Shown here one piece after another: positions 21,432 through 30,619 of a DNA stretch of 34,763 bases. The stretch comes from Psychromonas hadalis ATCC BAA-638 (GTDB taxonomy: Bacteria; Pseudomonadota; Gammaproteobacteria; Enterobacterales; Psychromonadaceae): NCBI RefSeq assembly GCF_000420245.1, contig NZ_ATUO01000021.1, positions 1 to 34,763 of the forward strand, read 5' to 3'. The first letter of the stretch is position 1. Every line of letters starts with the position of its first letter. The notes under the pieces are model-generated. The model searched no databases. It saw only the letters and a program-made list of their open reading frames with translations, and had not been told where the DNA came from. Position numbers and translations under genes: made by a program.

Positions 21432-23657
21432 ATGCACAGTGATTTATCAAACCGATTACGCGCAGATAAAAAGCGCGTAATTAAAGATAAGTTGGTTAAA
21501 TACAGTATCACGAGTGGTGGCGCGTTAGTCCTTGTCACTCTGTTACTTATCTTTGGTTACCTACTTTATGTTGTATTACCTATTTTTGCCCCGGTTACCA
21601 TTGAAGTTGAGAGGCAATTCACACAGGTTAAACAGGAGAAAATTTTAGCATTGGGGCTTGATGAGCAGAACGATATTAGCTATCAAATCAATGACCAAGG
21701 CGAGCTTTCTTTTTACTCATTACGCGAACATGACTTAGGAGAGTTATTACTGAGTCAATCTATCCTTAAAAATCACTCTGCTTTTGCTCAATCAGCGCCA
21801 AGTAGCAATAGTTATCTATTTGCTAATGAGCAGGGGCAAGTTACGCTCTTTAAAGCTGAATTTACAACTAGTTACCCTAATGATAAACGCCTGATCACCC
21901 CTAAAATCAGCTATCCATTAGGTAAATCATTAATAGAACTCGATGCGCAGGGAAAAGCCATCACAGCGATCAGTTTTGAGCTTTCAGACGAGAGCGGTGC
22001 AATTGCGGCGGTGACCAGTGATAATCGTGGTTTCTATCTTCTATTAACCGCCACCGAAGATATGATGACCGAAGATATCGTGTGGGAGCAGGAGCTTGTT
22101 GAGTTACCTTCACTGCCAAATAATGTTTCACAAATGTTATTAAGTCCTGATCTAAACAACCTCTTTGTCCGTTCACAAGATGATCTATTGGTTTACGATG
22201 TTTCTGATATTAATAATATTCGTATTAAGTCCGCATTGCCCATTAATGCACTGAATAGCCATGTTACGACCATGGCACTATTAACGGGTGCAAGTTCGTT
22301 GATGGTTGCAAATGAAAATGGCGTGATAAGCCAGTGGTTTGAAGTATTGAAAGATAACAAACGCACGCTCACTTTTATTCGTGATTTTAGTGCACAAGAA
22401 AGCGTTGTTTCACTGGTGCCAGAATACTTTCGTAAAAGCTTTTTAACCACCGATGAACAAGGCATGCTTTCACTTTTTCATGCGACAGGTGAAACACAAT
22501 TATTACATGAGAAAATAAGTGAAAATGAAACACTCTCCGTCGCATTTTCCCCTCGTGCTAATGCATTACTTATTATCGATGGGAAACAGGTTAAACTGTT
22601 TAAACTTGATAATGAACATCCTGAGATAACATGGTCTTCATTGTGGCAAGAAGTTTGGTATGAAGGTTATCCTGAGCCGAAATACCTGTGGCAATCAACC
22701 TCTGCTAGCGATGATTTTGAAGCGAAGATGAGCCTTGTGCCTATCTCTTTTGGTACCATTAAAGCCGCTTTTTATGCGATGTTATTTGCAGTGCCAATCG
22801 CGATTTCAGGGGCTATCTACACCGCTTATTTCATGTCTCCCTCGATCCGCTCTTATGTAAAACCTACCGTTGAAATAATGGAAGCATTGCCGACGGTCAT
22901 ATTAGGTTTCCTTGCTGGACTTTGGCTTGCACCGCTGATTGAGAATCAACTGCCGGGTATTATTTTACTCTTGATAAGCTTACCACTGAGTATTTTAGTC
23001 ACCGCCATGTTATGGACAACGTTACCTAAAAAAATCAGAGAAAGTATTCCAGAGGGGATTCATCCACTGATTTTATTGCCGGTGTTGTTATTAACGGGTT
23101 ATCTCTCCATGAGTTTTAGTGACACGTTGGAATTGTGGTTATTTAATGGTGATACACGTATGTATCTGACCAATGAATTAGGGATTAATTTTGATCAACG
23201 TAACTCCTTAATTGTTGGTATTGCGATGGGGTTTGCCGTTATTCCTACGATTTATACTATTGCTGAAGATGCAATATTCAGTGTGCCAAGAAGTTTAACC
23301 ATGGGCTCACTGGCATTGGGTGCGACACCTTGGCAAACCTTAGCAAAAGTGGTTATTTTAACGGCAAGTCCTGGCATATTTTCAGCCGTGATGATGGGCA
23401 CCGGACGTGCTGTGGGTGAAACGATGATTGTATTGATGGCAACAGGTAATACGCCGATCATGGATTGGAACATCTTTGAAGGGATGCGCTCATTGTCAGC
23501 CAATATCGCGGTTGAGATGCCTGAGTCTGAAGTGGGAAGTTCACATTATCGTGTGCTATTTTTAGCCGCCTTCGTACTGTTTATTTTCACTTTTATCTTT
23601 AATACTTTGGCTGAACTAGTACGCCAGCGTTTACGTGAAAAATATTCAAGCCTGTAG
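21432..23657 (+). CDS. pstC: Phosphate ABC transporter permease PstC (large form)
   Basis: Inner-membrane permease of the high-affinity phosphate importer. At 741 residues it is far longer than E. coli PstC (319). One membrane segment (about residues 29-55) is followed by a large extracytoplasmic domain of about 380 residues with beta-propeller-like, WD40-type repeats, then the permease core (from about 440) with several membrane segments. The core carries the EAA-type loop SLALGATPWQTLAKVVILTASPGI (about 624-647), which contacts PstB. A long PstC/PstA pair is known from other marine gammaproteobacteria. A GGAGAA ribosome site and Pho box lie upstream. A 97-bp mobile element separates it from pstA. 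Confidence 0.92.
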   Translation: MHSDLSNRLRADKKRVIKDKLVKYSITSGGALVLVTLLLIFGYLLYVVLPIFAPVTIEVERQFTQVKQEKILALGLDEQNDISYQINDQGELSFYSLREHDLGELLLSQSILKNHSAFAQSAPSSNSYLFANEQGQVTLFKAEFTTSYPNDKRLITPKISYPLGKSLIELDAQGKAITAISFELSDESGAIAAVTSDNRGFYLLLTATEDMMTEDIVWEQELVELPSLPNNVSQMLLSPDLNNLFVRSQDDLLVYDVSDINNIRIKSALPINALNSHVTTMALLTGASSLMVANENGVISQWFEVLKDNKRTLTFIRDFSAQESVVSLVPEYFRKSFLTTDEQGMLSLFHATGETQLLHEKISENETLSVAFSPRANALLIIDGKQVKLFKLDNEHPEITWSSLWQEVWYEGYPEPKYLWQSTSASDDFEAKMSLVPISFGTIKAAFYAMLFAVPIAISGAIYTAYFMSPSIRSYVKPTVEIMEALPTVILGFLAGLWLAPLIENQLPGIILLLISLPLSILVTAMLWTTLPKKIRESIPEGIHPLILLPVLLLTGYLSMSFSDTLELWLFNGDTRMYLTNELGINFDQRNSLIVGIAMGFAVIPTIYTIAEDAIFSVPRSLTMGSLALGATPWQTLAKVVILTASPGIFSAVMMGTGRAVGETMIVLMATGNTPIMDWNIFEGMRSLSANIAVEMPESEVGSSHYRVLFLAAFVLFIFTFIFNTLAELVRQRLREKYSSL

Positions 23658-23677
23658 TTAATAAAATAATATCTAAG

Positions 23678-23774
23678 GGTCGGCTTCAAAATTATTTGCG
23701 CTTTTGTTTTCAAAATAACCAGTCATTTCAGGATTGTTGAAAATAATTTAGCGCAAGTTATTGTGTAACGACTC
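23678..23774 (+). repeat. 97-bp hairpin MITE, copy 1 (between pstC and pstA)
   Basis: Begins GGTCGGCTTCAAAATTA and ends GTTATTGTGTAACGACTC. It aligns without gaps to the copy at 29266-29362 (read on the other strand), 82 of 97 bases identical by eye. Its ends are imperfect inverted repeats and most of its length can pair with itself. Flanks CTAAG (23673-23677) and CTGAG (23775-23779) look like a slightly diverged 5-bp target duplication. It ends 22 bp before the pstA ATG. Confidence 0.85.
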
Positions 23775-23796
23775 CTGAGTGCTAATAGGAAAATTT

Positions 23797-25455
23797 ATGA
23801 ATAAGTGGTTTAAATCGGGTACACCTTGGATCTGGATGACCGGTGGTGCAGTCAGTATCAGTCTGATCATGGTCATTGGTCTGTTTATCTTAATTGGTTG
23901 GCGAGGGCTTAGTTTTTTCTGGCCCGCAACGGTCTATGAATTTGACATGGTTGATAAGCAGGGCAATCACATGAATGTGATTGGTGAAATTTATGACACC
24001 GAAATAGTGCAAAAACAGCAACTCATTGAGGCGGGTATTACCGGTCTTGAAGATAAAGGTGATACGTTAGAGCGTTATCTGATCAAAATTGGTAATCGTG
24101 AGTATGTTGACTTAGATTTTCAGTGGATTTTAGAAACAGTGATCACTGAGAAACACATCCCTGATAATATCGTGGTATTAGAGCGCACCAAAAATGGTAA
24201 TTTTTATGGGTATATTAAAGCGATTCAAGAAAATGGTGTGGCGTTAACATTGACCCAAACAGAGCTAGAAACAGAGCTCGCTTCACGTCTTTCAATAACG
24301 CAGGCACTAAAAGATAAAGAGCATGCACTATTAAAAGGTGATATTGGGCGTATTAACTTTGACCTAGAAAAAATTCGACTTAAAAAACGTAAATTAGATC
24401 TAGATGGTCTGTTGACGACTGAAAAAATCACTGATTTTGAAAATCAGAGCCAGTTATTACGTGATGAATACCTATCACTTGAAACACAATTGTTTGATTA
24501 CCGTAAACAAGCATTGCGTGATAGCGTGGTGATCACTGATATGACGGGACGTGATGTGGTGATGCCTATCGCCACCGTGTTGGATTTTTATCTGCCCAAT
24601 AAGATGAGTTTTATTGAAAAAGTAGGGCACTGGTTTCATCAAACTGGAAAATTTGTTAGTGACGACCCTCGTGAAGCCAATACCGAAGGGGGCGTATTTC
24701 CCGCTATCTTTGGTACGGTCTTTATGGTCATGTTAATGGCAGTGATTGTGACGCCTTTTGGTGTGGTGGCTGCTATCTATCTGCACGAATATGCGCCGAA
24801 GAACAACCTCACTAAGTTTATTCGTATTGCCGTTATTAACCTTGCGGGTGTACCTTCGATTGTTTATGGGGTATTTGGTTTAGGTTTCTTTGTGTATATT
24901 GTCGGTGGCAGTATTGACCAACTTTTATACCCAGAAGCATTACCTTCACCTACGTTTGGGTCACCGGGTGTTTTATGGTCGGCATTAACACTGGCGATAT
25001 TAACCCTACCTGTTGTTATTGTATCAACAGAGGAAGGGCTGAGTCGTATTCCAAGTGCACTTCGTGAAGGATCGCTAGCATTGGGTGCAACAAAATCTGA
25101 AACGCTGTGGCGCATTATTGTGCCAATGGCAAGCCCTGCCATTATGACCGGACTTATTTTAGCGGTTGCACGTGCAGCAGGTGAAGTGGCGCCTTTGATG
25201 CTTGTTGGGGTTGTTAAAATGGCACCGACGTTGCCTGTTGATGGTAACTTTCCTTATCTGCATCTTGAGCGTAAATTTATGCACTTAGGTTTTCATATTT
25301 ATGATGTTGGTTTTCAAAGCCCGAATGTTGAAGCTGCACGACCATTAGTTTACGCGACCTCATTTTTATTGGTGACCGTGATTATCGGTCTCAACTTAGC
25401 GGCTATCGCGATCCGTAATAATTTACGTGAAAAGTACCGCTCACTAGAGCATTAA
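23797..25455 (+). CDS. pstA: Phosphate ABC transporter permease PstA (large form)
   Basis: Second permease of the phosphate importer. The 552-residue product exceeds E. coli PstA (296). An N-terminal membrane segment (about 12-38) is followed by about 250 residues of extracytoplasmic sequence with a helical, probably coiled-coil stretch (about 160-240, rich in Glu, Lys and Leu). The permease core then starts at about 300 (FPAIFGTVFMVMLMAVIVTPFG). The EAA loop is PSALREGSLALGATKSETLW. The ATG at 23797 was chosen over an upstream GTG at 23779 because TAGGAAAA precedes it and the GTG lies at the edge of the mobile-element target duplication. Confidence 0.93.
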   Translation: MNKWFKSGTPWIWMTGGAVSISLIMVIGLFILIGWRGLSFFWPATVYEFDMVDKQGNHMNVIGEIYDTEIVQKQQLIEAGITGLEDKGDTLERYLIKIGNREYVDLDFQWILETVITEKHIPDNIVVLERTKNGNFYGYIKAIQENGVALTLTQTELETELASRLSITQALKDKEHALLKGDIGRINFDLEKIRLKKRKLDLDGLLTTEKITDFENQSQLLRDEYLSLETQLFDYRKQALRDSVVITDMTGRDVVMPIATVLDFYLPNKMSFIEKVGHWFHQTGKFVSDDPREANTEGGVFPAIFGTVFMVMLMAVIVTPFGVVAAIYLHEYAPKNNLTKFIRIAVINLAGVPSIVYGVFGLGFFVYIVGGSIDQLLYPEALPSPTFGSPGVLWSALTLAILTLPVVIVSTEEGLSRIPSALREGSLALGATKSETLWRIIVPMASPAIMTGLILAVARAAGEVAPLMLVGVVKMAPTLPVDGNFPYLHLERKFMHLGFHIYDVGFQSPNVEAARPLVYATSFLLVTVIIGLNLAAIAIRNNLREKYRSLEH

Positions 25456-25500
25456 TAAAACTAAGTCACAAAATGTAGAATTTTAAAGTAGGAAAAGAAA

Positions 25501-26313
25501 ATGATCACATTACCAAAATCAACAACAGAAGCAGATGTTTTAACGCATCTTAGCGCAGATAAAACGGCCCTAGAGATAAAAAACTTAAATCTTTATTACG
25601 GTGATAAACAAGCACTGTTTGATATTTCAATGAAGATACCTAAGGGGAAAGTGACCGCCTTTATCGGTCCATCGGGTTGTGGTAAATCAACACTCTTGCG
25701 TTGCATCAATCGCATGAATGATTTGGTTGATATCTGTCGAGTAGATGGCACCATTGAATTACAAGGCACAAATATTTATGAAAAATCGGTCGATGTGGCA
25801 TCACTTCGTCGCCGTGTGGGCATGGTATTTCAACGACCGAACCCTTTCCCAAAATCTATCTACGAAAATGTGGTTTATGGTTTACGTTTACAAGGAATAA
25901 AAGATAGGCGTGTACTCGATGAAGCAGCAGAAACATCACTGCGCAGTGCTGCCCTTTGGAATGAGGTAAAAGATCGTCTACATGATAACGCCTTTGGACT
26001 TTCTGGTGGTCAGCAACAACGTTTAGTGATTGCACGTGCCGTGGCGATTGGCCCTGAGGTTTTATTATTAGATGAGCCGACTTCAGCGCTTGACCCTATC
26101 TCTACGTTAACCATTGAAGAGTTGATCACTGAGCTTAAAGAGAAGTTTACTGTGGTTATTGTCACGCACAATATGCAACAAGCCGCCCGTGTGTCTGATC
26201 AAACTGCCTTTATGTACATGGGGAAATTAATTGAGTATACAGATACCAATACCTTGTTTACTGCCCCCAAAGAGAAGCAAACAGAAGACTATATAACAGG
26301 CCGTTACGGCTAG
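25501..26313 (+). CDS. pstB: Phosphate ABC transporter ATP-binding protein
   Basis: ATPase that powers phosphate import through PstC and PstA. The 270-residue product has Walker [10 protein letters not shown] (about 56-64), the Q-loop in FQRPNPFP, the ABC signature LSGGQQQR (about 160-167), Walker [14 protein letters not shown] (about 180-192) and the switch His in [10 protein letters not shown]. The N-terminal 20 residues are an extension of low conservation. It starts 45 bp after pstA with AGGAAAAG as ribosome site. No pstS lies in the operon, so the periplasmic binding protein must be encoded elsewhere. Confidence 0.96.
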
Positions 26314-26319
26314 TTGCGC

Positions 26320-26493
26320 GTAACTATTCAGGTCGTCGCCATTTACGCCTATTTCATCGTTGAAAAATGCTCATTTAGGCAAGCTAAACTGCGCTTTTTC
26401 GCCTTGAACTGATCATAAATGGCTTAGCCCTGAACACTTACAGTCTATTTTGTATAAAAACATCTTCTATTTTAGGAGGTGCAGAATTGTTAC
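26320..26493 (+). repeat. GTAACTACTCAG-family element, copy A (between pstB and phoU)
   Basis: A 174-bp element starting GTAACTATTCAGGTCG and ending in a decayed GCAGAATTGTTAC. It matches copy B (29157-29430, reversed) end to end once B's nested insertion is removed, including GAAAAATGCTCATTTA, CTGCGCTTTTTCGCCTTGAA and ATGGCTTAGCCCTGA. At 26384-26388 it carries a single CTAAA, the empty site that is duplicated around the insertion in copy B. It starts six bases after the pstB stop and supplies most of the phoU leader. Confidence 0.85.
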
Positions 26494-26522
26494 CAAAAAG
26501 AATGAGTAAAAGGAAAAATATA

Positions 26523-27230
26523 ATGGAAGCATTAAATCTTAATCGCCATATTTCAGGGCAGTTTAATAATGAATTAGAAAGCGTACGTAACCAAGTGATG
26601 CAAATGGGGGGCTTGATTGAACAGCAACTGAGTGATGTGCTGGTTGCAATGGCTGATAATAATGTCGAATTAGCACGACAAGTGATCATAAGAGATAAAG
26701 AAGTTAACCAGTTTGAGTCTAATGTTGACCAAGAGTGTTCGCGTATTATTGCTAAACGCCAGCCTGCTGCCAGTGATTTACGCCTTATATTAACCATTAT
26801 GAAGAGTATCACTGAGCTTGAACGTATTGGTGATGGTGTTGCAGGTATTGCCTCAATGGTGATTGAGAATCATGGCAAAGAGGTGCCTTCTTTAATTGGC
26901 CTTGAAAATATGGGGCAGATTGTGTTGAAGATGTTACATAACGCACTGGATGCTTTTACGCGTCTTGATCTCAAAGCGGCTATTGCGATTCATAATGAAG
27001 ATAAAAAAGTAAATCGTCAGTACGAAAGTATCTTACGTGAATTGATGACCTTTATGATGGAAGATCCTCGCTCTATTCCCTTTGTATTAAAAGTACTTGC
27101 CTCGGCACACTCTATTGAACGAATAGGGGATCGTTGTCAAAATTTATGTGAGCAAATTGTATATTTAGTCAAAGGAGTGGATGTACGTCATGCAACCGAG
27201 GAGGAGATCAACTCGCTGTTAGTGGACTGA
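26523..27230 (+). CDS. phoU: Phosphate signalling regulator PhoU
   Basis: Cytosolic helical-bundle protein that links the Pst transporter to the PhoR/PhoB pair and keeps the Pho regulon off in high phosphate. The 235-residue product (E. coli 241) contains two PhoU repeats, each with the E/D-x-x-x-D-x-x-E/N metal-type motifs (VIIRDKEVNQFESNVD and AIHNEDKKVNRQYE) and ERIGD motifs near residues 95 and 200. ATG at 26523 was chosen because AAAAGGAAA precedes it and MEALNLNRHISGQFN matches the family start. It closes the pst operon, but a repeat element separates it from pstB. Confidence 0.95.
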   Translation: MEALNLNRHISGQFNNELESVRNQVMQMGGLIEQQLSDVLVAMADNNVELARQVIIRDKEVNQFESNVDQECSRIIAKRQPAASDLRLILTIMKSITELERIGDGVAGIASMVIENHGKEVPSLIGLENMGQIVLKMLHNALDAFTRLDLKAAIAIHNEDKKVNRQYESILRELMTFMMEDPRSIPFVLKVLASAHSIERIGDRCQNLCEQIVYLVKGVDVRHATEEEINSLLVD

Positions 27231-27397
27231 TGTTAATTATTTGATCTATTTCAGCTGTTTTGATGTTTTTTTAATTTCATTAAAAATTCTAAATTCGCAG
27301 TGCGGATAATCGAGGGCTAATTAGCGGCAAATGCAGGCTAGCTCTCGTTTCAAGCGACTATTACACCAGAAAATAAGTTACTTTTTTAATCAACTGT

Positions 27398-27406
27398 TGT
27401 TATAAT
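27398..27406 (+). promoter_or_regulatory. Extended -10 promoter ahead of the DUF4124-type gene
   Basis: TGTTATAAT is a perfect extended -10 (TGn-TATAAT). The -35 region 17 bp upstream (TTACTT) is poor, as is usual for this promoter class. It lies about 43 bp before the ATG at 27450. Confidence 0.6.
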
Positions 27407-27449
27407 TCTCGGAATAGGCAAGAGAACTTAAATTTCAGGGACTGAAAAA

Positions 27450-27895
27450 ATGAAATATATACTATTAATTTTATCGATATCGGTATCGGCATTCTCACCA
27501 ATTGCTAACAGTAATACCACACTACAACGGTTTTTAGCTGGATCGATGACAATGGTGTAATGCATTTTACCAACAAAAGACCCAAAGAAAGCGTTGTTGC
27601 TGCTGAGTTCTTAACAACGATTGATATCGAAGTCGTCAACGTGCCAGACGCGCCACGTATGAATACTCAACCTGATCAACTTCCTGCTGTTGCCCAAAAT
27701 GTACGTTCAATTGCAGAGAAAGATTGGACCTATAAAGAGCTTTCTCCAACCTGTCGCTGGATTGCAAAACGTATCTCATTACTTGAAAATATGATTGAAC
27801 AAAATTTAGATGTCTATGATGAAATTTTCCGTCAAGAGTTAAGCAAACGTCAGAAAGATTGGAATTCACAAAGTTGTTTCGCGGGTATTAGTTAA
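27450..27895 (+). pseudogene. Secreted DUF4124-type protein, frame-shifted after the signal peptide
   Basis: ATG at 27450 starts a clear signal peptide (MKYILLILSISVSAFSPIANS) that runs into a stop at 27560 in its own frame. From about 27530 the -1 frame continues as SWIDDNGVMHFTNKRPKES, the typical DUF4124 opening seen in small periplasmic proteins, and stays open to 27895. The full product would be about 148 residues with two Cys in the C-terminal part. The break falls on CGGTTTTTAGC; one extra T restores a single ORF. Mutation, sequencing error or ribosomal slippage at G-TTT-TTA are possible. A good terminator follows. Confidence 0.75.
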
Positions 27896-27918
27896 CCACT
27901 AAAAACAAAATTAATTTT

Positions 27919-27953
27919 AAAAAGCGAAGCTGAACATCCGCTTCGCTTTTTGC
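27919..27953. terminator. Rho-independent terminator
   Basis: AAAAAGCGAAG and CTTCGCTTTTT form an 11-pair stem around an 11-base loop; T-runs on both strands would let it work in either direction. Confidence 0.9.
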
Positions 27954-28024
27954 GTTTTAGAGGATATAAAAACTTCATTTTTCTTCGTGCTTTCGTGGTG
28001 AATTGTGTTTTAGATTACTATTTA

Positions 28025-28051
28025 CTGATTTTGCACTTTCAATGATAACGG
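28025..28051 (+). repeat. Solitary end of the 222-bp element family
   Basis: Matches 15313-15340 with one missing base and one substitution (core TTTTGCACTTTCAATGATAACGG shortened here to positions 28029-28051). No partner end was found within a few hundred bases, so it is either a remnant or a shared promoter sequence. Confidence 0.6.
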
Positions 28052-28058
28052 GTATACT
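28031..28058 (+). promoter_or_regulatory. Candidate queA promoter
   Basis: TTGCAC (28031-28036), 16 bases, TATACT (28053-28058), 34 bp ahead of the queA ATG. The -35 and spacer belong to the repeat end and the -10 spans its junction, exactly as ahead of yebG. Confidence 0.65.
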
Positions 28059-28092
28059 CTCGCTTTATTTTTGCGTTTGCGGATCCTACACA

Positions 28093-29148
28093 ATGAAAGT
28101 CTCTGATTTCTCTTTTAAATTACCTGAATCATTAATTGCTCGTTACCCAAAAACTGAGCGCAGTGGTAGCCGTTTACTCTCTTTAAATGGACTTTCTGGT
28201 GAGATAAATCATCTGCAGTTTCCTGATGTTATTAATCTAATCAATAAAGATGATCTGGTGATCTTTAATGATACACGGGTTATTCCTGCACGCATGTTTG
28301 GCGAAAAAGAGACCGGCGGTAAAATTGAGGTGTTAGTTGAACGTGTGTTAGACGAAAAGAGCTTTCTCGCTCATGTACGTAGTTCTAAATCCCCCAAACC
28401 GGGTTGTAAATTACGTTTAGAAAATAGCGTCGATGCGGTAATGGTACAACGTAAAGGGCCTCTGTTTGAAATACACCTCGAAGGTCAACAATCGGTGTTA
28501 GAGGTTCTAGATAGTATCGGCCATATGCCACTGCCTCCTTATATTGATAGGCCCGATGAAGAGGCAGATAAGGAGCGTTACCAAACTGTTTATAATAAAA
28601 ATCCGGGCGCGGTTGCAGCGCCCACAGCAGGGTTACATTTTGATCAAATGATTTTAGACAAGTTAACCCATAAAGGGGTCGATTTTGCCTTTGTCACATT
28701 GCATGTGGGTGCGGGGACTTTTCAACCGGTAAAAGTAGATAATATACTCGATCATCATATGCACAGTGAACTCGCAGACGTTTCCCAAGAAGTCATTGAT
28801 AAAATCATCGCAACCAAAGCAAAAGGGGGGCGTATCATTGCGGTTGGCACAACATCCGTTCGCTCGATTGAAAGTGCCGCCCATGCGACGCTCGCGAAAG
28901 GCAAGGCACTGACTCCCTATTTAGCGGAGACTGATATCTTTATCTATCCCGGTTACAAATTTCAATTGATAGATGCAATGATAACCAACTTTCATCTTTC
29001 TGAATCAACACTGTTGATGTTAGTCAGTGCTTTTTCAGGCAAAGAGAACATCGACAACGCTTATCACGTTGCAATACAAGAAAAATACCGTTTCTTTAGT
29101 TACGGTGACGCGATGTTTTTAACCAACCGCAACACAACCAATCAATAA
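28093..29148 (+). CDS. queA: S-adenosylmethionine:tRNA ribosyltransferase-isomerase
   Basis: Moves the ribosyl group of SAM onto preQ1 in tRNA to give epoxyqueuosine, the penultimate queuosine step. The 351-residue product starts [19 protein letters not shown] and has the family stretches [16 protein letters not shown] (about 55-70), GHMPLPPYI (about 144-152), YQTVY...[13 protein letters not shown] (about 163-183), [11 protein letters not shown] and [11 protein letters not shown]. The frame is open for 30 more codons upstream, but that part covers the promoter and has no family similarity. It is followed by tgt, which acts earlier in the same pathway, after a repeat element of 274 bp. Confidence 0.96.
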
Positions 29149-29156
29149 TGATTTTT

Positions 29157-29430
29157 GTAACTACTCAGTACCCCATGAAATTGAGGTGCTTTTATATAAA
29201 ATAGATTGTAAATGCTCAGGGCTAAGCCATTTATGTCTAATTCAAGGCGAAAAAGCGCAGTTTAGGAATCGTTACAAAATAACTTGCGATAAATTGTTTC
29301 CAAAAAGCCTTAAATAACTGGCTATTTTAAAAACAAAATCGTAAGTAATTTTGAAGCCGATCTTTAGTGGTTTAAATGAGCATTTTTCAACGAAGAAATA
29401 GGCTTAAATGGCAACGGCCTGAGTAGTTAC
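29157..29430 (-). repeat. GTAACTACTCAG-family element, copy B (between queA and tgt), interrupted
   Basis: Perfect 12-bp terminal inverted repeats, GTAACTACTCAG (29157-29168) and CTGAGTAGTTAC (29419-29430). The element is inverted relative to copies A and C. It spans 274 bp because a 97-bp element plus a 5-bp duplication sits inside; the remaining 172 bp align with copy A (174 bp). It starts eight bases after the queA stop and ends 55 bp before tgt. Confidence 0.9.
29266..29362 (-). repeat. 97-bp hairpin MITE, copy 2, nested in copy B
   Basis: Reverse-strand copy of the element at 23678-23774, no gaps, 15 mismatches by eye. It is flanked by TTTAG at 29261-29265 and 29363-29367, a perfect 5-bp target duplication. 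Copy A of the host repeat has only one such site (CTAAA at 26384-26388). The first 23 bases at each end pair at about 16 positions and the inner sequence continues the hairpin. Confidence 0.92.
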
Positions 29431-29482
29431 TAATTTTTAACAACAATGACACAAGTCGGACTGTCTTTCTGACTGAGGATAA

Positions 29483-30619
<1,137 letters not shown>

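Follow-up and report, generated by a model that had tools for sequence, protein, structure and literature searches.

Two copies of a 99-bp MITE lie in the window, by which we mean the whole stretch of DNA analysed here (34,763 nucleotides; positions 1 to 34,763 of contig NZ_ATUO01000021.1, Psychromonas hadalis ATCC BAA-638, assembly GCF_000420245.1). They belong to a family known here only from Psychromonas. A DDE transposase of the IS5 superfamily, acting in trans and with a target choice like that of IS1031, is likely to move it. We give this reading a probability of about 0.73, within the limits set by a 351-contig draft, many copies at contig ends and stop-codon classes drawn from 46 insertions. 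New here are the siting of insertions on stop codons with built-in repair of the stop, and a nested composite that may have become a transposon. The features of the window are:

29265..29363, plus strand: MITE copy, subfamily B, 99 bp; starts with GG, final base T where the family has C
29262..29264, unstranded: left 3-bp target duplication TTA, from family flanks and empty sites
29364..29366, unstranded: right 3-bp target duplication TTA, from family flanks and empty sites
23677..23775, minus strand: MITE copy, subfamily A, 99 bp, from BLAST (inverted alignment)
29157..29430, plus strand: outer repeat copy B, which hosts the MITE; ends GTAACTACTCAG / CTGAGTAGTTAC
26320..26493, minus strand: outer repeat copy A (L239) with the empty site at 26384-26388, from repeat comparison
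28003..29148 (ORF as listed), plus strand: queA-like gene upstream of the nested MITE (PF02547)
29486..30619, plus strand: tgt-like gene downstream of the nested MITE (PF01702)

The nested copy, its empty sites and the family

The original prediction described two gap-free 97-bp copies, at 23678-23774 and 29266-29362, and both are present. They are inverted relative to each other, with 82/97 identical positions after reverse complementation and 51/97 in direct orientation. TTTAG was found on either side of 29266-29362, inside outer repeat copy B, as had been reported, and the unduplicated site at 26384-26388 is a single CTAAA, the reverse complement of TTTAG. The subfamily A copy is flanked by TAA (23674-23676) and TGA (23776-23778), which differ at one base. 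The genes downstream of it encode a PF00528 permease, an ABC ATPase and a PhoU protein, and the ORF upstream had no Pfam match at 1e-10.

Empty sites were sought in other copies of the outer repeat, 30 of whose 40 listed matches were fetched, the copy B of the window included. The insertion point is uninterrupted in 22 of the 29 others (two of these 22, L223 and L224, probably represent the same locus on different contigs). Outer repeats that always contain the MITE, which the original prediction had named as counting against it, are therefore not what was found. One further outer-repeat copy (L026) carries a MITE at another TTA, and the same site is empty in L226. In the gap between queA and tgt, all 21 other Psychromonas loci with both genes are without the MITE and without the outer repeat. 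Empty sites are thus available at paralogous (22/29) and orthologous (21/21) positions, and the window copy would be a B element that entered, between queA and tgt, a repeat older than itself. The MITE, its transposition, its nesting and the natural empty site, all claimed from the window alone, are now supported by copy number, duplications and empty sites.

The outer repeat also forms a MITE-like family, with ends GTAACTACTCAG and at least 40 matches in the window's genome (40 of 74 candidates scored). Copy B is adjoined by TGATTTTT / TAATTTTT, 7/8 identical. Apparent 8-bp duplications occur at L225, L228, L233 and L234 as well as in the window; AAAAAATT, CATTTTTA and GAATAATT are identical on the two sides, and GAAAAGAT/GAAAAGGT are alike at 7/8 positions. 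We take the GTAA ends together with an 8-bp duplication to be reminiscent of IS66. Six outer-repeat copies (L227, L229, L235, L237, L244 and L249) hold other extra sequence inside the repeat, all at almost the same position, ~10 bases away from where the MITE sits.

The window's genome (G000) is a 3.98 Mb draft in 351 contigs. BLAST with the subfamily B copy of the MITE returned at least 81 matches in it, 42 of nearly full length and 39 to half copies, these counts being lower bounds with 40 of 153 candidates scored; with the subfamily A copy as query there were at least 47 (40 of 140 candidates scored). A chance origin is excluded by the at least 42 near-full-length copies. A 24-base end pattern, allowing up to 3 mismatches, matched 144 times on the forward and 141 times on the reverse strand, while the reversed control matched 0 + 0 times. 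About 291 kb of fetched DNA held 272 half-units in 98 clusters, some of which are one locus split over two contigs. Many contigs start or finish in MITE or composite sequence, and the repeat therefore probably breaks the assembly.

Among 60 genomes searched by BLAST, 16 had matches, all of them Psychromonas: the window's own genome and 15 of 23 congeners. The absence of copies from relatives, which would have spoken against the original prediction, is therefore not what was found. The 36 other genomes of the order had no copies by BLAST (0/36). The end pattern matched 16/23 congeners, one of them (G001) by a single 3-mismatch match that is possibly due to chance. Outside the genus, 28/370 genomes had one or two end-pattern matches with up to 3 mismatches, and the reversed control matched in 20/370 such genomes and once each in three congeners; two cases with 2 mismatches (L189, L204) had just weak additional matches close by. 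A 50-base pattern found three stretches in a named-genome collection, possibly without the window's own genome, and all were Psychromonas (P. arctica DSM 14288 and Psychromonas sp. Urea-02u-13). Across the 36 genomes searched by BLAST, the 370 searched with the end pattern and the named-genome collection, no copies outside the genus were found beyond background, and a 35-base pattern had 0 matches in viral contigs. A search of openly licensed papers found, judged by the titles listed, no description of such an element in Psychromonas.

The MITE flanks are similar between four pairs of loci from different Psychromonas genomes (L044/L050, L032/L054, L043/L051 and L037/L038), and on these flanks some congeneric insertions look older than the species splits. 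One congener carries a tandem array (L055; G019 C1:218401-219311) in which the MITE recurs five times in ~203-bp units, each copy preceded by a hairpin-forming sequence.

Target duplication, ends and folding

The length of the duplication was examined in 83 elements with two recognised ends, of which 74 had 12 known bases on each side and 69 were unique insertions. Triplets adjoining the GG...CC ends were identical in 58/69 (62/77 before duplicates and flanks with N were dropped). Shuffling the right flanks 2000 times gave a mean of 33.2 identical triplets and a maximum of 45, the mean being high because nearly all triplets are TTA or TAA. In congeners, triplets were identical in 15/21 copies. 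The 11/69 insertions without an identical triplet count against our main reading. Immediately inside the left TWA stands G in 64/69 insertions, and immediately inside the right TWA stands C in 66/69; the positions just beyond TWA show no such constancy (left C 35, T 23; right G 34, A 25). The near-constant G and C are therefore part of the element, and TWA alone is duplicated: the target is YTWAR, the duplicated part is the 3-bp TWA and the element is 99 bp long.

The original prediction had inferred transposition with a 5-bp duplication; transposition stands, and the 5 bp must be replaced by 3 bp. A 97-bp element with a TTTAG-type duplication accounts for the window copy, which has TTTAG on both sides where the empty site has it once, and a 5-bp model fits 11/69 insertions. 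Set against the 58/69 that fit at 3 bp, and against the G and C that begin and end the element next to variable outer bases, this reading is highly improbable.

The element is short and non-coding, with terminal inverted repeats, as expected of a MITE. Its ends (GGAATCGTTACAAAAT / GGATCGGCTTCAAAAT) are 24-bp imperfect repeats in distinct left and right versions, alike at 18/24 positions in an ungapped alignment, and the differences between left and right are kept across the aligned Psychromonas copies. The claim that almost the whole element folds on itself was borne out, since 29265-29363 has z = -4.76 as DNA and -5.98 as RNA, and 0/200 shuffles fold as well. The fold has 38 pairs, and 93.4% of 2374 cells are paired in 63 distinct copies (of 66), as opposed to 36-54% when the same structure is slid along the copies; the reference structure is the fold of one A copy, and the pairing figures lean towards that copy. 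Double changes occur at 7/38 pairs, mainly at two, the chief one being C-G to A-U, which tracks subfamilies A and B, with another close to the loop. RNAalifold consensus folding gave only a trivial 4-pair structure.

REP/BIME repeats are not known to make a target duplication, and their partner is a RAYT transposase. Recombination, and not transposition, might have spread the family as a structural RNA or a repeat of REP type; in favour are its palindromic, mostly intergenic and numerous copies and the tandem array in one congener. The target duplications, which set the MITE apart from REP/BIME repeats, the empty sites and the nesting at exact ends all contradict this, as does a search of Rfam, in which the elements had no hit (E up to 1 in 23000-30000), and we find the idea scarcely credible.

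Insertion at stop codons

Siting relative to genes was scored, using simple ORF calls, for the 46 insertions that have 300 bp or more on each side. Thirteen fell exactly on a stop codon, 28 were intergenic, two lay at gene edges and three inside open frames; background YTWAR sites in the same stretches numbered 12, 409, 54 and 1485 in these classes. Non-genic insertions were on stops in 13/43 cases against 1.7 expected (P ~9e-9), the expectation being 5-mer-matched against all fetched DNA of the genome itself. With slightly different classes, 12 were on stops at ORF minima of 60, 90 and 150 aa (P < 1e-5 each). The zone 1-40 nt after stops was favoured too (10 observed, 57 background; 90 aa), and part of the effect is therefore a general bias towards 3' ends, while positions more than 160 nt after stops were disfavoured (6 vs 153 background; 90 aa). 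In congeners, 3/21 copies were on stops (P = 0.019), insertions common to several genomes included. The outer repeat served as a control at the 10/30 loci that were usable, with its left end misplaced in 6/10; one copy lay within 2 nt and two within 40 nt of a stop, and we give this control no weight. Our search of openly licensed papers found no earlier report of such stop-codon siting among the papers listed or in the text consulted.

One insertion touches two genes, and at all 14 gene ends touched the stop and the protein length are kept, with the same last codon. The stop is rebuilt in one of two ways: the duplicated triplet is itself TAA, or a TTA supplies TA and the G of the element completes TAG. 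At C73, where the two triplets do not match, the empty stop as reconstructed is uncertain. Any stop codon overlapping TWA is TAA in frame or TA plus a purine, and landing therefore rebuilds it if the end base is G. The excess on stop codons would arise because an insertion there does no harm, with TWA forming TAA or TA plus the G of the element, and selection against insertions in genes and far from gene 3' ends would sharpen it.

The excess could instead reflect selection for function, with copies retained because a hairpin just downstream of the stop makes the mRNA more stable or terminates it; under this alternative, we infer, the MITE would benefit its host. The hairpin is conserved, the excess drops with distance from the stop, the R end is met by 11/14 gene ends (a lean only), and flanks suggest that some insertions are common to several species. 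Against it, the double changes are confined to 7/38 pairs, and terminator-like hairpins showed no excess as targets (3/68 vs 15/429). We consider functional selection rather unlikely, and prefer harmless landing as the source of the excess.

Two kinds of structured target were tried and dropped: the terminator-like hairpins just mentioned, and target sites enclosed in predicted hairpins, which were not above background (mean 8.7 vs 10.0 pairs). A first stem test gave 4/68 vs 44/1499 at score 8 (P 0.15) and 3/68 vs 11/1499 at score 12 (P 0.02); since these came from a set of eight thresholds, the test is not relied on. By eye, six insertions lie in or beside terminators.

Self-nesting, the putative mobilising enzyme and related elements

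The MITE also inserts into itself. Twenty-two composites of ~200 bp were read, which amount to 21 loci (C104 and C220 have common flanks), counted apart from clusters that differ in length or sit at contig ends. Fifteen are B in the centre of A, two are a third subfamily in A, two are B in B and two are A in A, the last using a second site. The third subfamily was seen only nested in A among the copies read (G000 C111:3575-3775 and C178:191-391).

In the 15 loci of the 201-bp B-in-A composite, the outer triplets are identical in 12 of the 14 that could be tested. As read from alignments, TTAAG is present in 13/15 inner copies and in 0/9 solo B copies, and the composite is therefore read as one transposing unit: there was probably a single nesting, followed by transposition of the 201-bp whole. 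Separate insertions of B into resident A copies would also produce such loci. The centre is a recurrent target, taken by B in A, by the third type in A and by B in B, and an unequal inner junction (GAA left, TAA right) is common to 12/15 B-in-A and both third-type composites; since the third type has it too, the junction is no mark of a single event. The distribution of TTAAG speaks against independent insertion, one hybrid solo copy (C79) also having it, and we consider separate events rather unlikely, favouring the transposed composite. At one congeneric locus (L049 ~1800-1880; G005 C44) the right half of a MITE stops at the centre and runs into GGGGCTGTTGATC, which resembles the ends of IS5-type elements in Psychromonas; judged from this junction, an IS may use the central target too.

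A partner enzyme was sought by profile, with PF01609 in the window's genome and PF13340, PF13359, PF05598 and NF033580 in 24 Psychromonas genomes. The window's genome had 14 PF01609 matches, of which 10 were named (best IS982, IS4, IS701, ISAs1 and IS1634, though five of these 10 scored under the curated cut-off), two NF033580 matches, which are two of the IS982 loci, and no matches to PF13340, PF13359 or PF05598. Ends at 30 candidate loci matched at 14-17 of 24 positions, and shuffled sequence at 14-16/24. With PF01609 searched in the window's genome and the other four families genus-wide, no transposase with matching ends was found around the loci fetched there or in the 23 congeners. The end pattern revealed no autonomous copy in 394 genomes of the order, the window's own genome being covered among the matches listed; an autonomous copy with such ends could have escaped detection in that genome.

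It is nevertheless sound to suppose that a transposase encoded elsewhere moves the MITE in trans. The TWA duplication is common to PIF/Harbinger elements (TWA) and the IS1031 group (TNA), and we therefore infer an IS5-superfamily enzyme, of IS5/IS1031 type and PIF/Harbinger-like. The partner may have been lost or may be unsampled; in the window's genome the family may now be immobile, or its partner may be missing from the draft.

As described in the parts of the sources consulted, the IS1031 group of the IS5 family prefers TNA and makes a 3-bp repeat (PMC12016507), with which the TWA duplication of the MITE agrees. The end sequences differ: those of the one example of the group consulted, ISLrh, are GAACCTGTCTAG... 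(PMC12016507), those of the MITE are GGAATCGTTACA / GGATCGGCTTCA, and the IS5-type ends of the genus, like CTAGGGCGTGTTGATC, differ as well. We do not class the MITE as a member of the group. From the portions used, PIF/Harbinger elements are related to bacterial IS5 (PMC4482050) and duplicate TWA (TTA in mPing), with a target preference beyond the 3 bp (PMC2836001, PMC4482050). Tourist-type MITEs such as mPing thus resemble the Psychromonas element in being MITEs with a 3-bp duplication and a wider target preference; they are moved by PIF/Harbinger transposases, whereas the Psychromonas MITE is bacterial and its enzyme class is deduced. The NuwaII group of PHIS transposons has the target C|TNA|G, and for it 3 and 5 bp could not be told apart from empty sites, to judge from the text consulted (PMC4482050). 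The Psychromonas MITE has the same form of target and the same ambiguity, but NuwaII is eukaryotic, and in Psychromonas the 69 insertions clearly favour 3 bp.

Short bacterial MITE-like repeats of other kinds include RUP, which is 107 bp long and intergenic, Correia/NEMIS and ERIC; these differ in having TA at their ends (IS630-like for RUP), and stop-codon siting is not mentioned for them in the part of the source consulted (PMC2229807). BrickBuilt of Porphyromonas is a bacterial MITE with IS5-family-like ends (PMC4596501), and MITEAba12 of Acinetobacter has a matching co-resident IS (PMC6382973). Going by what was available of these two accounts, both have other ends and other duplication lengths, and for the Psychromonas MITE no matching IS was found. 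The nearest parallel to the gene-end siting is QMITE2 of Coxiella, with, in the section consulted, a single case of a copy at a gene 3' end beside the stop codon (PMC5896051). In QMITE2 the result is a longer protein, or a stop created by an indel, while in Psychromonas the duplication rebuilds the stop, at 13 insertions.

More tentatively, and with clear doubt on our part, the family could be viewed as a stop-codon-proof landing module that settles at gene ends, rebuilds the stop, places 3'-end hairpins across the genus and, by nesting in itself, gives rise to longer transposable palindromes. At the level of the main reading, a target rule that fits stop codons, combined with a first base that repairs them, offers a simple structural reason for a high copy number in a gene-dense genome. 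The family parallels Tourist MITEs in a bacterium, and its copies are numerous enough to prefer 3 over 5 bp clearly, a choice that, in the source consulted, had been left undecided for the related eukaryotic NuwaII group, and its nested form may be a new, longer transposon.
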